NCBI RefSeq assembly: GCF_000966975.1
Contig: NZ_JZWV01000574.1
Span: forward strand, 1 to 10,448
Length of the DNA stretch: 10,448 bases
Reading direction: 5' to 3'
Source of the DNA: Streptomyces katrae
GTDB lineage: Bacteria > Actinomycetota > Actinomycetes > Streptomycetales > Streptomycetaceae
Shown in pieces: positions 1-10,316 of the stretch. The position numbers and the translations under genes were made by a program. The notes below the pieces were generated by a model. That model was not told where the DNA came from. It made no database searches and saw nothing but the letters and a program-made list of their open reading frames with translations. The stretch's first letter is position 1, and every line of letters starts with the position of its first letter.

Positions 1-1239
1 GGGCTGGAACATGCGTGAGCTCGCGGCCATCGAGCGGTCGAAGAGGTCGGCGAGTTCGGGGTCGCGGGCGAAGTGGTCGAAGTGGTTCTCGCCGTGGAGG
101 TGGTCGAAGCCCGGCTGTCCGGTCCGTACGGCGTGGTCGAGTTCGCCGAAGGAACGGTAGAAGGGGCCTCCGTACATGAGGGCCAGGGGGCGCATGGAAT
201 CCGGGGCGTCGGCGCGCAGGAGGGCTCCGAGCGCGGTGAGGCGGAAACCTTCCTCCGGGAATTCCTCGGGGAGTTGCTCCGGGAGTCCCTCCGGGAGTTC
301 TTCGCGGGTCACGGCGCCGAGCATCGCGAGGTAGCGCAGCAGGGTGGCGAGGCCGCGGGGATCGGTGCCGGTGAGGCGGGCGAGGTCGCGGGCGGTGGAG
401 GCGGTACGGGTGTCCATCGCGTCGGGGAGGCGCAGCCGGGCGAAGGAGGCGAGGGCCTGCGTGGTCCACGCGCCGGTGAGCAGGTGAAGGAGCGTTTCGG
501 CGGGCGGGCTCGCAAGCCGGGGGTGGGTGTGGTCCAGGTGGGCGGCGAGGGAGTCGCGGTGGTCGCCGTGGGCGTAGAGCTCCAGCCGCCGGTAGCCGCT
601 GACTCCCTCGGCGGGGGTGGTGAAGTACAGCACGGTGCCGTCCTCGTGCGGGTTGTACCCGCCGCCGTCGGGGTGTGCTCCGTGACGGGCGAGGATCGCG
701 CACAGGCCGCGCAGGACCAGCGGGTCCGGGTGGTCGACTTCGAAGGCGAGGTGGGCCTCGTGCCCGGCGGTCCGCTCGGGGGCGGCGATCCGCTCCAGGC
801 CCGAGTGCGGGGGGACGGTCAGGGCGAAGACCTCGACCGCGCGGCGCTCCCCGTCGGTGCCCCGCACCTGCGGGCGCAGGATCCGCACGTCGAGGTCGGC
901 CGGGGCCAGCCGGTGGCGGCGGGCGAGGCGTTCACGGACGACCACGCTGGGGTGGGAGGGGGCGTCGAACGTCAGCCCGCAGTCCCCGAGTCGGGCCCGC
1001 AGGGTCTCCTCGTCGGGCGGGAAGACGAGGATCCCGGCGTGGGCGAAGTGGCAGTGCCCGGCCAGGGCCCGCAGGTCCGGGCCCTCGATGCCGGGCAGGA
1101 GGAGCGGGAGCAGGGAGGCGCTGTCGTGCTCGCGGACGAAGGCGGCCGCCGCGCGCAGGCGGGCCGTGTCGTCCAGCAGCATCGTTTCGTCGTGGAGCGG
1201 CACCGTCGTCATCGTCGTGGCCGTCGTCATCGTGGGCAT
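1..1239 (-). CDS. O-methyltransferase with an N-terminal VOC-like domain (3' end outside window)
   Basis: The frame is open for 413 codons from ATG at 1239 to the window edge. From about residue 245 it matches the dimerisation region of SAM-dependent O-methyltransferases of the acetylserotonin/hydroxyneurocosane type (ETLLHLLTGAW, then a winged-helix-like stretch, LTALGALLRADAP, and FDHLHGENHFDHFARDPE). The SAM-binding Rossmann domain should follow but lies outside the window. Residues about 55-225 are extra to the family. They resemble a VOC fold: HEAHLAFEVDH (160-170), DGGGYNPHEDGTVLYF, then YRRLELYAHGDH (216-227), with His163 and Glu220 placed like metal ligands. Four LPEx-type repeats follow at 315-330. 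A GAGG box sits only 2 nt before the chosen ATG; the ATG at 1230 is the alternative. The gene lies 145 nt downstream of the hydroxylase remnant on the same strand, so the two may have shared a pathway. The methyl acceptor cannot be told. Confidence 0.82.
   Translation of the reverse strand, partial: MPTMTTATTMTTVPLHDETMLLDDTARLRAAAAFVREHDSASLLPLLLPGIEGPDLRALAGHCHFAHAGILVFPPDEETLRARLGDCGLTFDAPSHPSVVVRERLARRHRLAPADLDVRILRPQVRGTDGERRAVEVFALTVPPHSGLERIAAPERTAGHEAHLAFEVDHPDPLVLRGLCAILARHGAHPDGGGYNPHEDGTVLYFTTPAEGVSGYRRLELYAHGDHRDSLAAHLDHTHPRLASPPAETLLHLLTGAWTTQALASFARLRLPDAMDTRTASTARDLARLTGTDPRGLATLLRYLAMLGAVTREELPEGLPEQLPEEFPEEGFRLTALGALLRADAPDSMRPLALMYGGPFYRSFGELDHAVRTGQPGFDHLHGENHFDHFARDPELADLFDRSMAASSRMFQP
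250..297 (-). repeat. Four 12-nt tandem repeats coding LPEG/LPEQ/LPEE/FPEE
   Basis: Four consecutive 12-nt units in the methyltransferase gene encode Leu/Phe-Pro-Glu-x. They fall between the winged-helix part and the LTALGALLR segment, where family members normally have a short loop. Because each unit is a whole number of codons, copy number could change without breaking the frame. Confidence 0.8.
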
Positions 1240-1262
1240 GTCCTCGAAACCGTTGGTGGTCT

Positions 1263-1292
1263 GGCAGGGCAGGGCAGGGCAAGGCAGAGCAG
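1263..1292. repeat. Pentanucleotide microsatellite (ggcag)6, two units imperfect
   Basis: Six units read ggcag, ggcag, ggcag, ggcaa, ggcag, agcag on the plus strand. They lie between the stop codon of the hydroxylase remnant (1385) and the start of the methyltransferase (1239), so in the transcript they would form a C-rich leader about 25-55 nt before the methyltransferase start. The rest of 1293-1384 is G-rich on the plus strand and shows no clear gene or terminator. Confidence 0.8.
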
Positions 1293-1384
1293 GGGCAAGC
1301 CGGGTGGGGCCGGGGGCCGGGCGCGGTGGGCCCGGGTGGGAGAACCGGTCCGGGTGGAGGGAAGAAGGGGGCGGCTCGTGGGGG

Positions 1385-2525
1385 TCAGACGCCCACGTAG
1401 TTCGCGGCGAACCAGTCCTGGTGGATGCGCGAGGTGCGCAGCGAGGCGATCCGGGAGCGGCGCAGGCCGGCCTGGAAGAACGATCCGGCGTCCCCACCGG
1501 TCTCGGGTGCCGAGTGCAGCAGGCGGGTCATCCACCCGGTGAACTCCTGTGCCTTCCAGATGTGTTCCAGGCACCGGTCCGAGTATCCGTCGAGTCCCGT
1601 GGTGTCGCCCCGGGTGAGGGCGCCGAGGAGGGCCGTGGCCAGGATCTCGGCCGCCAGGACGGCGAGGTTGGCGCCCTTCGCCGCGGCCGGGGCGAGCAGG
1701 CTCGCGGCGTCGCCCGCCAGGAAGAGCGAGCCGTGCCGGAGCGGCTCGATCACATCGCAGGTCAGGTCGAAGAGGCCGCGTTCCCGGAACGGGCCGCGGT
1801 GCAGCGGCCCGTGGTCCGCGGCGCCCATCCGGATGTCGAGCTCGTCCCAGATCCGCTGCTCGGACCAGGCGTCGGCGGCGGTGCCGCGTTGCCACTGGAG
1901 GTAGTAGCGGGTCACCTGCGGGGTCCGGGCCATGTGTCCGGCGAAGCCCCGGTCGTGGAGGGCGTAGCCGACGGCGTCGAGGCTGGGCGGGGCCTCGGCG
2001 AGGAGGCCGAGCCAGGTCACGCCGTGATCGTGTTGGTGGCGGACGGTGCCCGGCGGCAGGGAGCGGCGGGCCGCCCCGTGCCGGCCGGGGGCCGTCGGCG
2101 TCGTGCACGGCGAGAGCCTCGGTGTCGAAGTGGACGCGTCCGCCGCGGCCGAGGTAGTGCTCGAGGAGGTCCGTGACCAGGTCCTGCTGGGGGTAGACGT
2201 GGTGCCGCGTGTCCTCGCCGAGGGCGCCGTAGTCGAGGCGGAACCGGCCGTCCCGGGTGCGGAACTCGCAGGTGCCGTGCCGGCGGCCGTACCGGTGCAG
2301 GCCGTCGGCGAGTCCGTGGCGTTCCAGGATCCGGGCGGTGTTCGGTGCGAGGAACCCGGCGCGGGCCCGGTCGCGGACGTGGGTGCGGGAGGCCCGCTCC
2401 AGGATCACGCAGTCGATCCCTGCGGTGAGCAGGAGGTTTCCGAGGACGAGTCCGGCCGGTCCGGCGCCGAGCACGAGCACGTCGACTGGTGCGCGTAACG
2501 CGCGGGATGTCTGACTTTCGGTCAT
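1385..2525 (-). pseudogene. p-hydroxybenzoate hydroxylase-like FAD monooxygenase, broken by internal deletion and frameshift
   Basis: Intact relatives use FAD and NADPH to hydroxylate an aromatic acid next to its phenol. The first part (ATG 2525 to about 2092) has the FAD motif GAGPAGLVLG, then ILERASRTHVRDRARAG and YPQQDLVTDLLEHYL. The second part resumes in another frame near 2085 with GRHGAARRSLPPG, WLGLLAEAPP, GSLFLAGDAASLLAPAAAKGANLA and the terminal ANYVGV. Compared with the Pseudomonas enzyme, about 71 nt are missing at the join, including the strand before the conserved Asp-Gly fingerprint, and the frame changes. Aligned to Pseudomonas numbering, Tyr201, Arg214, Tyr222, Pro293 and Tyr385 are present but Ser212 is Met. 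Read without repair, the first frame continues as unrelated Arg/Pro-rich sequence to 1227. The product is therefore probably inactive, unless this is an assembly error. Confidence 0.85.
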
Positions 2526-6376: not shown

Positions 6377-6418
6377 CAAGGGCACGGGCAAGGGCACGGG
6401 GCCCGTGCCCCGTGCCCT
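6377..6418. terminator. Bidirectional hairpin terminator built from direct and inverted repeats
   Basis: A 12-nt unit caagggcacggg occurs twice in tandem (6377-6388 and 6389-6400), followed by complementary copies. AGGGCACGGG at 6379-6388 pairs with CCCGTGCCCT at 6409-6418, and inner bases can pair too. It lies between converging genes and overlaps the last bases of the permease gene, so it could stop transcription from both sides. Confidence 0.7.
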
Positions 6419-8004: not shown

Positions 8005-8841
8005 TCAGGCGGTCAGGACGCCCGTGCCGAGGAGGCCGAAGAGGAGCAGGCCGACGACGATGCGGTAGACGACGAAGGCGTTGAAGGAGTGCTTGGCGAC
8101 GTACTTCAGCAGCCAGGCGATCGAGGCGTAGGCGACGACGAAGGACACGACGGTGCCGACGATCAGCGGGAGGGTGTCCACGCCGGCCCCGAGGGCGTCC
8201 TTGAGCTCGTAGAGGCCGGCGCCGGTCAGTGCCGGAATGCCGAGGAAGAAGGAGAGGCGGGTGGCCGCGACGCGTTCCAGGTCCAGGATCAGGCCGGTGG
8301 ACATGGTGGCGCCGGAGCGGGAGAAGCCGGGGAAGAGCAGGGCGAGGATCTGCGAGGAGCCGACCAGCATGGCGTCCTTGAGGGAGGTGTCGTCCTCGCC
8401 CCGCTTGTGGCGGCCCATCTGGTCGGCGGCCCACATCAGGCCGCTGCCGACGATGAGCGAGCCGGCGACCACCCACAGGGAGGCCAGCGGTCCTTCGATG
8501 AGGGGCTTGGCGGCGAGGCCGACGACGACGATCGGGATGGTGGCGTAGATGACCCACCAGGCGAACTTGTAGTCGTGGTGGTAGCGCTCCTCGCGGTTGG
8601 CCAGCCCCCGCCCCCAGGCGGTGACGATCCGCGCGATGTCCTTGGAGAAGTAGGTCAGGACGGCCGCGATGGCGCCGACCTGGATCACGGCGGTGAACGC
8701 GACGACGGACTTGTCGTCGACGGGGATGCCCATCAGCCCTTCGGTGATCTTGAGGTGGCCGGTGGAGGAGACCGGCAGGAACTCCGTCACCCCCTCCACG
8801 ACACCCAGGACTACGGCCTGGCCCACACTGATCGCGCTCAC
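8005..8841 (-). CDS. uppP: Undecaprenyl-diphosphate phosphatase (UppP/BacA)
   Basis: UppP removes one phosphate from undecaprenyl diphosphate at the membrane, recycling the lipid carrier for peptidoglycan and other wall polymers; extra copies raise bacitracin tolerance. The 278-aa protein has the normal length and several membrane helices. Both family motifs are intact: EGVTEFLPVSSTGHL at 16-30, with Glu16, Glu20 and His29, and PGFSRSGATM at 171-180, with Arg175. The start is GTG 8841, with AAGG 3-4 nt upstream. A hairpin and a perfect 36-bp palindrome lie upstream, and a BlaI-type repressor gene is divergent from the same region, suggesting repression by that protein. The gene appears intact although its likely regulators are broken. 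Confidence 0.97.
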   Translation of the reverse strand: MSAISVGQAVVLGVVEGVTEFLPVSSTGHLKITEGLMGIPVDDKSVVAFTAVIQVGAIAAVLTYFSKDIARIVTAWGRGLANREERYHHDYKFAWWVIYATIPIVVVGLAAKPLIEGPLASLWVVAGSLIVGSGLMWAADQMGRHKRGEDDTSLKDAMLVGSSQILALLFPGFSRSGATMSTGLILDLERVAATRLSFFLGIPALTGAGLYELKDALGAGVDTLPLIVGTVVSFVVAYASIAWLLKYVAKHSFNAFVVYRIVVGLLLFGLLGTGVLTA

Positions 8842-8883
8842 GTGCCTTCACCTTCGGTTGGGTTGAACGGGGCATCGGGCATC

Positions 8884-8908
8884 CTGTCCGGACGCACGCG
8901 ACGGACAG
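8884..8908 (-). promoter_or_regulatory. Leader hairpin upstream of uppP
   Basis: CTGTCCG (8884-8890) and CGGACAG (8902-8908) pair around an 11-nt loop. It lies 43 nt before the uppP start and overlaps the outer edge of the large palindrome by three bases. It may be a second operator or an RNA structure in the uppP leader. Confidence 0.4.
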
Positions 8909-8941
8909 AGTAACTTCTATTCGCGAATAGAAGTTACTCTG
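8906..8941. promoter_or_regulatory. Perfect 36-bp palindrome, probable operator shared by uppP and blaI-like gene
   Basis: The arm CAGAGTAACTTCTATTCG (8906-8923) is exactly mirrored by 8924-8941 with no spacer. It is AT-rich in very GC-rich DNA and sits in the only gap between the divergent uppP and blaI-type genes, 31 nt before the repressor start. BlaI/MecI repressors bind dyads as dimers and usually repress their own operon, so an operator is the simplest reading. The symmetry means either strand could present the same promoter-like bases. The sequence does not obviously match the TACA/TGTA dyads of staphylococcal BlaI sites. Confidence 0.75.
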
Positions 8942-8972
8942 GACCACGAGCGAAGGACGGAAGGAGGCGGCG

Positions 8973-9366
8973 GTGGGCACGCGCGAAGAGCCGGCGGGCC
9001 GGGGCAGCGGCGCACGGCGGGCGAACGGGGCCCTGGAGAAGGAGGTCATCACCGTCCTGCACGCCGCGGACCGGGCCCTCACCCCCGGCGAGGTGGCCGG
9101 GCGGCTCACCGCCGCCCCCGCCCACACCACGGTGGCCACCAACCACCCTGGCCCGGCTGCAGGCGCGCGGCGTCCTGCAGCGCACCCCGCGCGGGCGCAG
9201 CTACGCCTACGCGCCGGTCACCGACGAGCCGGGGCTCACCGCGCGGCAGATGTACCGGGTCATGGAGGGCGGCAGCGACCGCGCCTCGGTCCTGACCCGT
9301 TTCGTCGACGAGCTGTCCGACGACGACGAGGACCTACTGCGCCGCCTGCTGGGTCCCGAGGGATAG
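8973..9366 (+). pseudogene. BlaI/MecI-type winged-helix repressor, frameshifted by a 4-bp duplication
   Basis: Members of this family bind operator dyads as dimers and are cleaved after a partner M56 protease senses wall stress. GTG 8973 follows AAGGAGG (8961-8967) by 5 nt. The first frame gives NGALEKEVITVLHAADRALT, then PGEVAGRL and AHTTVAT, the start of the recognition helix. The frame then goes wrong. Removing one ACCA from the tandem ACCAACCA at 9138-9145 restores TTVATTLARLQARGVLQRTP, then RGRSYAYAPVTDEPGLTARQMYRVM to a TAG at 9364, giving 129 aa, the usual family length. Uncorrected, the product has a normal first 55 residues and then Arg-rich nonsense, so it should not bind DNA. The M56 gene follows 16 nt later, the standard gene order for this system. 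Confidence 0.88.
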
Positions 9367-9382: not shown

Positions 9383-10316
9383 ATGCACCTGGCCGTCTAC
9401 CTCCCCCTCCTCTTCCCCGCGCTGGCGGGGCTGTGCGCCGAACCGCTGGCCCGCCGGCTGGAGCCGCGTCTGGCGACCTGGCTGCTGACCGCGGCCGGCC
9501 TCCTGCTGGCCGCTTCCAGCACGCTGGTCCTGGGCCTGCTCGCGCTGGCCGGGCTGGTGCGCATTCCCCTGGTCGACGCCCTCAAGGGCTACTCGCCCGA
9601 GGTGATCGCCCGGCAGGACCCTGCCGCGTGGCCGGCCGCGCTCGCGGGCGCCGTCCTGCTGGCCCTCGGCCGTCCTGGCCGCGGTCCGGCTGGCGGCGCG
9701 GCGGGCCGGCGCCCTGTGGTCCGCGGCCCTGGAGGCGGCCTGCCTGCCCGGCCCCGGCCCGGTCGTCGTCACCGACGACCCCGGCGCGGACGCGTACGCC
9801 ATGCCCGGGCTGCCCGGGCGGATCGTCATCTCCCACGGCATGCTCGACGCCCTCGACGCGGCGGGGCGGGAGATCCTCCTCAGCCACGAGCGCGCCCACC
9901 TGCGCCACCACCACTACGCGTTCGTCTCCCTCGCGCAGCTGGCCGCCGCCGCCAACCCGCTCCTGCGGCCGCTGGCCCGGGCCGTGACCTACACCGTCGA
10001 ACGGTGGGCCGACGAACACGCCGCCCGGCGGAGCGGGAACCGCCGTGCCGTCGCCGAGACCGTCGCCCGGGCCGCCGTCGCCGCCAAGCGCAGCCGCGCC
10101 CGCAGCCGCGTCCCGGCCGCAGCCCTCGGCATCCTCGGCCGCCGTCCCGGGCCCGGCATGGTCCCCCGGCGCGTCGCCGCCCTCCTGGCTCCCCCGCCCC
10201 AGAGCCCGCCCCTGCTGCTCGCCGCGGCCGCGGCGCTGCTGGCGGCGACCGGTGTGTGCGCGCTCGATGCGGCGTACGACCTGCACCGCTTCCTGGAACT
10301 CGCGCACGTCCGCTGA
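9383..10316 (+). pseudogene. BlaR1-like M56 membrane metalloprotease, frameshifted
   Basis: M56 proteins are membrane zinc proteases that cut BlaI-type repressors. From ATG 9383 the first frame gives two or three membrane helices (HLAVYLPLLFPALAGLCA; WLLTAAGLLLAASSTLVLGL; PAALAGAVLLAL). It breaks near 9667. The other frame resumes with VLAAVRLAARRA and continues to TGA at 10314. That part holds GRIVISHGMLDAL, the zinc motif HERAH (about His168-His172 after repair), and ERWADEHA with Glu206 as the likely third ligand, then a last hydrophobic segment near residue 290. One extra base (C at 9667), or loss of two bases from a CGCG, would explain the shift. The repaired protein is about 310 aa and has no penicillin-binding sensor domain, unlike staphylococcal BlaR1, as in many actinobacterial M56 proteins. 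A GGGAG lies about 12 nt before the ATG. Confidence 0.85.

Follow-up and report, generated by a model that had tools for sequence, protein, structure and literature searches.

BlaI and BlaR1 are the textbook case of beta-lactam induction, and the classical BlaI-BlaR1 and MecI-MecR1 systems share a divergent layout. Here we describe a related arrangement in Streptomyces katrae, in a stretch of 10,448 nucleotides (contig NZ_JZWV01000574.1; hereafter the window) in which a perfect 36-bp palindrome separates uppP, the gene for undecaprenyl-diphosphate (Und-PP) phosphatase, from a divergent blaI gene followed by an M56-type membrane metalloprotease gene. Like the BlaI-BlaR1 and MecI-MecR1 systems of Staphylococcus and Bacillus licheniformis, the locus places a repressor of BlaI/MecI fold beside a BlaR1-like membrane zinc metalloprotease, with a proposed inverted-repeat operator in the divergent control region. 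Unlike them, its protease is short (∼311 aa) and lacks the penicillin-binding sensor, its neighbor is a carrier-lipid phosphatase gene rather than one for a beta-lactamase or penicillin-binding protein, and the core of its palindrome reads TAT-N6-ATA instead of TACA-N2-TGTA. From comparison with related loci, we consider it likely that the palindrome serves as operator for the neighboring repressor of the BlaI family, lying in a divergent control region shared with one or more carrier-lipid phosphatase genes.

In the available portion of a study on Clostridium thermocellum, the repressors BlaI_0696 and BlaI_1845 have half-sites ending in CTAT and paired sites for four protomers, and the BlaI proteins of this organism control small, autoregulatory regulons (PMC8457756). 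The locus described here resembles them in its CTAT-ending half-sites, paired sites and putatively small, autoregulatory regulon; the BlaI_0696 half-site is GTCTAT with a spacing of five nucleotides, whereas TTCTAT is spaced by six here (PMC8457756, same portion). Neither undecaprenyl nor bacitracin is mentioned in the main text of that paper. The CopY and CopR copper repressors belong to the same superfamily and also use short inverted-repeat operators, according to the part of the source available (PMC7253601). Unlike CopY, for which that part describes C-terminal CxC metal motifs (PMC7253601), the 11 intact BlaI proteins of the clade discussed below contain no cysteine, and the match to the NCBIfam CopY/TcrY model, at 24 bits, fell below the cut-off of 122. 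Mycobacterium tuberculosis BlaI (Rv1846c) is likewise an actinobacterial BlaI and differs in its reported targets, which include blaC, atpH, and sigC in the accessible part of that report (PMC8265638).

The palindrome and its conserved core

The palindrome (8906–8941, without strand) consists of two 18-nt arms, 8906–8923 and 8924–8941, in which all 18 pairs are complementary and no loop intervenes. It is the longest palindrome found in the window and is real, far beyond chance: from the base composition of the window, ∼3e-6 perfect palindromes with arms of at least 18 nt would be expected. Its GC content is 39%, vs. 72% across the window, so that both its uninterrupted symmetry and its AT-richness bear out the original prediction, which had been made from the sequence of this stretch. 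The element lies between the uppP start (8841, minus strand) and the first blaI start codon (8973, plus strand), and its central 28 bp occur once in the S. katrae genome (8.05 Mb, 1873 contigs) with up to three mismatches allowed.

A 20-bp core within the palindrome, CTTCTATTCGCGAATAGAAG (8914–8933, without strand), recurs unchanged in 11 loci besides that of the window; in all 12 it lies between blaI and a divergently oriented phosphatase gene or genes (uppP, PAP2, or both). When 11 of these intergenic regions were aligned (L011, the twin of L012, was omitted), the core formed the long invariant block. Conservation had been set beforehand as a check, and the core was indeed kept in relatives with the same gene order and invariant in the closest clade. 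Ten of the 12 core loci also carry GACTGTAG, half of a degenerate second site beside the core; it is absent in L006 and in the window, where the place of the relatives' tandem operator, 19 bp on (8934–8950, plus strand), has lost this half.

Among the 27 loci without the core, 24 bear CTAC-N5/6-GTAG sites, most commonly TTCTAC-N6-GTAG, and 14 have two such sites 19 bp apart. Related loci thus mostly have TAC-N6-GTA where the window has TAT/ATA, over the same 20-bp span, and the window site is a variant of a wider TAC-N6-GTA operator-like family of related blaI genes. The classical BlaI/CopY operator core TACANNTGTA is absent from the site, whose core is TATTCGCGAATA. The remark that the arms do not resemble classical TACA/TGTA sites was therefore correct, and the suggestion drawn from it, an operator of another type, does not hold up; the site appears to be a BlaI-type variant with TAT/ATA for TAC/GTA, and the C. 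thermocellum BlaI proteins with CTAT-ending half-sites, as far as the available portion describes them, also speak against another type (PMC8457756).

Of 39 loci (window included), 36 had a site of the general form in the 330 bp preceding blaI. When 19 genomes or records were scanned for CTTCTAY-N6-RTAGAAG without mismatches, 15 gave a match, and a reversed control pattern gave none in the same set. The TATTCGCGAATA form was found in 11 genomes or records including that of the window, as 12 copies (one each in ten, two in the eleventh), all inside blaI loci, and TAC forms were found in four scanned genomes at their blaI loci. Four genomes (G303, G304, G309, and G310) had no exact match to the general pattern because their sites deviate from it. 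With up to one mismatch, the core was present in two of 394 family genomes, both times at known loci. Since every copy seen falls at a blaI locus, a wide regulon of the exact core was rejected, although more divergent sites may lie elsewhere in these genomes. A TGRMA-ACTS block 14–27 bp upstream of the operator, present in 17 of the 27 core-less loci vs. one of 11 core loci, could be a promoter element; we do not rely on it.

Gene order in related loci

Gene order was tallied in 38 loci outside the window, 34 from a BlaI-alignment scan of genome contigs plus plasmid loci L005–L008. L003 and L004 (identical to L018 and L012, respectively), L001, L002, L009, L010, and L045 onward were left out, and the near-duplicates L011/L012, L030/L035, and L041/L042 were retained. 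A carrier-lipid gene (uppP, PAP2, or DedA) is divergent to blaI in 33 of these loci, and all 33 have a general-form site, vs. 0.67% of shuffled regions. UppP and PAP2 occur together in seven (L005, L011, L012, L013, L015, L017, and L018) and PAP2 with no UppP match in 19 (L006, L007, L016, L019–L023, L025, L026, L028–L032, L035, L037, L038, and L040); in L016, whose PAP2 match is partial, and L015, whose uppP match is disrupted, it was PAP2 that placed the locus in the phosphatase group. UppP stands alone in four (L014, L024, L033, and L034), uppP ends a divergent row of glycosyltransferase genes in L008, and in L043 and L044 the divergent gene encodes a DedA-family protein and is followed by a PAP2 match. 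A plasmid BLAST search returned two Streptomyces linear plasmids with the order PAP2, blaI, M48, one of them also with uppP. The earlier suggestion that the same switch controls uppP stands in so far as this recurrent gene order and its accompanying site point to it; the control itself we infer.

As a control for association, 41 PF03965 matches were collected in 13 genomes of the genus, including that of the window, and 30 loci were examined: the window, three weak matches without similarity to BlaI, and 26 other BlaI loci. PAP2 or UppP adjoined one of these 26 (L060; tblastn, 1.5-kb flanks). Pfam analysis of seven divergent genes at control loci gave PAP2 (L060), LytR-CpsA-Psr, TerD (three), LPG synthase, and one without a family.

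Several accessory features of these loci were also recorded. Among the other BlaI loci, L071, L079, and L080, all from Streptomyces, have a divergent TerD-domain gene with CTAC-N6-GTAG sites nearby and form another BlaI-linked class, and L066 and L087 have divergent envelope genes, for a LytR-CpsA-Psr family protein and an LPG-synthase transmembrane protein. In L007, L008, L023, L029, and L031, two of them on plasmids, blaI-M56 is followed by a gene for an MFS transporter. Genes for arsenate reductase, ArsR-family proteins, and cation transporters border the L005 cassette on plasmid pFRL5, which suggests an accessory resistance region.

Repressor, protease, and competing explanations

The family assignments of both proteins were made on intact relatives. 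The BlaI of L004 matched Penicillinase_R (PF03965) with 77.6 bits (cut-off 22.6), and Foldseek returned MecI (1okr) as the best match of the winged-helix BlaI model (E 1.1e-4; model mean pLDDT 72), MarR proteins scoring nearly as high as MecI. VIA-align 2 gave general winged-helix proteins, with no MecI or BlaI among the 50 matches listed. The nearest sequence match in the PDB was 2g9w, which we take to be BlaI Rv1846c of M. tuberculosis. The M56 partner contains transmembrane segments and an HExxH gluzincin protease domain, as in BlaR1 and MecR1, and the best fold match of a modeled intact relative was BlaR1, ending at the protease part. A C-terminal penicillin-binding sensor was not found in this 311-aa protein, for which the Pfam scan gave M48 only, so that the signal does not have to be a beta-lactam. 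As regards the predicted binding of a BlaI dimer to an inverted-repeat operator, the observations comprise the repeat and its conservation.

A single clade (support 99/99) unites the 11 intact BlaI proteins whose loci carry the TAT/ATA core, and the recognition helices of these proteins start with A/G-H-T-T. At the residue occupied by His, 22 of the 24 loci with TAC/GTA sites have Tyr and two have Arg. This residue (52 in L012) starts the third helix (52–64) of the AlphaFold model, and the third helix is the one that reads DNA in MecI and BlaI. Streptomyces sp. H39-S7 has a locus of each type (L015 and L021), the two being separated by ∼12 kb within a single contig, and insulation of paralogous cassettes is therefore a possible reason for the operator change.

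A BlaI dimer would bind the 20-bp core symmetrically, the recognition helix reading each TTCTAT half-site, and would repress blaI-M56 together with the divergent phosphatase gene or genes (PAP2-uppP in most close relatives, uppP alone here). Envelope stress would cause the membrane protease M56 to lift this repression, just as BlaR1 lifts that exerted by BlaI, presumably by proteolytic release, and derepression would increase the recycling of Und-PP to undecaprenyl phosphate (Und-P).

Several observations weigh against this interpretation. No sigma-70-like promoter was found within 8780–9050, and in the window blaI and M56 each match intact relatives as two pieces in different frames. Five of the 38 loci have no divergent carrier-lipid gene: the divergent side holds an ABC transporter in L027, Usp in L039, and DUF347 in L041 and its near-copy L042, and in L036 no divergent gene was scanned and an ArsP-like permease lies on the same strand; operator-like sites are nonetheless present in L027 and L036. 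In tblastn searches of the 38 loci, no M56 match was obtained in L026, L030, and L035, and only partial ones in L016, L021, and L039. The cassette is also rare, a 26-mer occurring in three of 295 genomes of the genus, including that of the window. An extra mixed site that fits the general pattern, CTTCTATCCGCGTGTAGAAG (contig C55, 380703–380722), lies away from the known blaI locus (L031) in genome G308, one of the four with TAC forms. The contrast in carrier-lipid association with other BlaI loci is strong but not exact, covering 30 of 41 matches, 1.5-kb flanks, and Pfam results for seven of 26 loci. NCBIfam undecaprenyl-diphosphatase models match PAP2 below their cut-offs; PAP2 is accordingly not claimed as a certain Und-PP phosphatase. 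Finally, the correspondence of His/Tyr with TAT/TAC reflects a single split in the repressor tree, and because the clade is one evolutionary event it counts once, as a lead and not as proof.

The site could instead serve only the autoregulation of blaI-M56, with the uppP or PAP2 neighbor transcribed from a constitutive promoter of its own. The confinement of the TAT/ATA core to blaI loci agrees with this, as do the autoregulation and small regulons of the C. thermocellum BlaI proteins in the available portion of that study (PMC8457756). We nevertheless regard it as unlikely, given that divergent carrier-lipid genes recur in varied forms (UppP, PAP2, both, or DedA with PAP2) and that in five loci with longer intergenic regions another site lies closer to where the phosphatase gene starts, with an imperfect one in three more.

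The symmetry might also be maintained by the need for an RNA hairpin or a DNA cruciform, such as one in the leader of blaI, and not by the binding of a protein dimer. The palindrome can form a 16-pair stem (−20.7 kcal/mol, z −9.1), and of 11 distinct flanks (L012 omitted as a duplicate of L011) all but L005 have a complementary pair next to the core, either A-T, T-A, or G-C (shuffle p 0.00065). This pair underwent at least five state changes on the clade tree (from which the window is absent), at least two of them both-sided, to or from G-C; a change from A-T to T-A could run via T-T, as in L005. Covariation in the outer arms is confined to few pairs, however: it is weaker at arm pairs 5 and 6 (p ∼0.03), pairs 4 and 7–10 do not exceed shuffles, and pairs 2 and 3 are near-invariant and uninformative. 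The inner six bases are asymmetric in sister loci, where 13 of 69 inner pairs are complementary, so that no long stem is kept, and no terminator-like tail was found at the palindrome. Moreover, template switching can create and maintain perfect inverted repeats, according to the portion of the source available (PMC8794818), and would explain the paired changes without any structural role. Conservation for a hairpin or cruciform is, on balance, very unlikely. That another regulator, such as one for envelope stress, binds the palindrome and BlaI binds elsewhere is highly improbable: the classical TACA/TGTA words are indeed missing, but the palindrome stands where related blaI genes have their TAC-N6-GTA sites and covers an equal span, and in a genome with two copies of the core each of them lies at a blaI locus.

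Genes of the window and possible biological role

The uppP gene (8005–8841, minus strand) is intact and of BacA type, with a full-length BacA domain above the curated cut-off (PF02673, 280 bits; NF001392, 383 bits, cut-off 308); a second UppP, 44% identical, is encoded on another contig of the same genome. Between uppP and the palindrome lies the remnant of a PAP2 phosphatase gene (8838–8882, minus strand), recognized by comparison with the full-length gene of relatives (L004/L012). It consists of 14 codons in frame and keeps the start and end of the gene, its stop overlapping the uppP start as in the full gene. In L014 a PAP2-like end likewise precedes uppP without the full gene, and L034 has no PAP2 match. 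The palindrome had been described as the only notable element in this gap; it is notable, but so are the PAP2 remnant and the relatives' second degenerate half-site beside the core, lost in the window.

For the blaI gene (8973–9366, plus strand), tblastn recovers two pieces that share 66 and 82% identity with an intact relative; the frame is broken near 9143, and the second piece has a PF03965 match of 40.3 bits. The BlaR1-like M56/M48-type gene (9383–10316, plus strand) likewise gives two pieces, 93 and 85% identical, with the break between 9634 and 9717. These breaks may reflect assembly error or gene decay; sequencing or assembly error is plausible because a monooxygenase-like gene (named from its sequence; about 1227–2525, minus strand) also changes frame, near 2020. 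Elsewhere in the window, a second, GC-rich and imperfect palindrome (6391–6418) at the 3′ end of an amino-acid permease gene is possibly a terminator.

Among the matches listed in a search of the open literature at title and abstract level, none described BlaI control of an Und-PP phosphatase, which is weak evidence of novelty; in PMC6208641, a candidate for naming BlaI together with UppP, the sole match proved to be the author name Blair in a reference. We tentatively propose that the cassette may be an accessory switch of streptomycetes, in which BlaI and a sensorless BlaR1-like protease are dedicated to the undecaprenyl-phosphate cycle (UppP, PAP2, and a DedA/UptA-like flippase) and respond to stress on the carrier lipid or the cell wall instead of to beta-lactams, the operator of one lineage having been re-coded (TAT/ATA, with His for Tyr) apart from that of a paralogous cassette. 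If so, the two operator types would provide a natural pair for reading out BlaI specificity, and a branch of BlaI/BlaR1 systems would be wired to carrier-lipid recycling, widening the range of signals that such switches sense and giving antibiotic producers of the soil an inducible answer to drugs that act on the lipid carrier.
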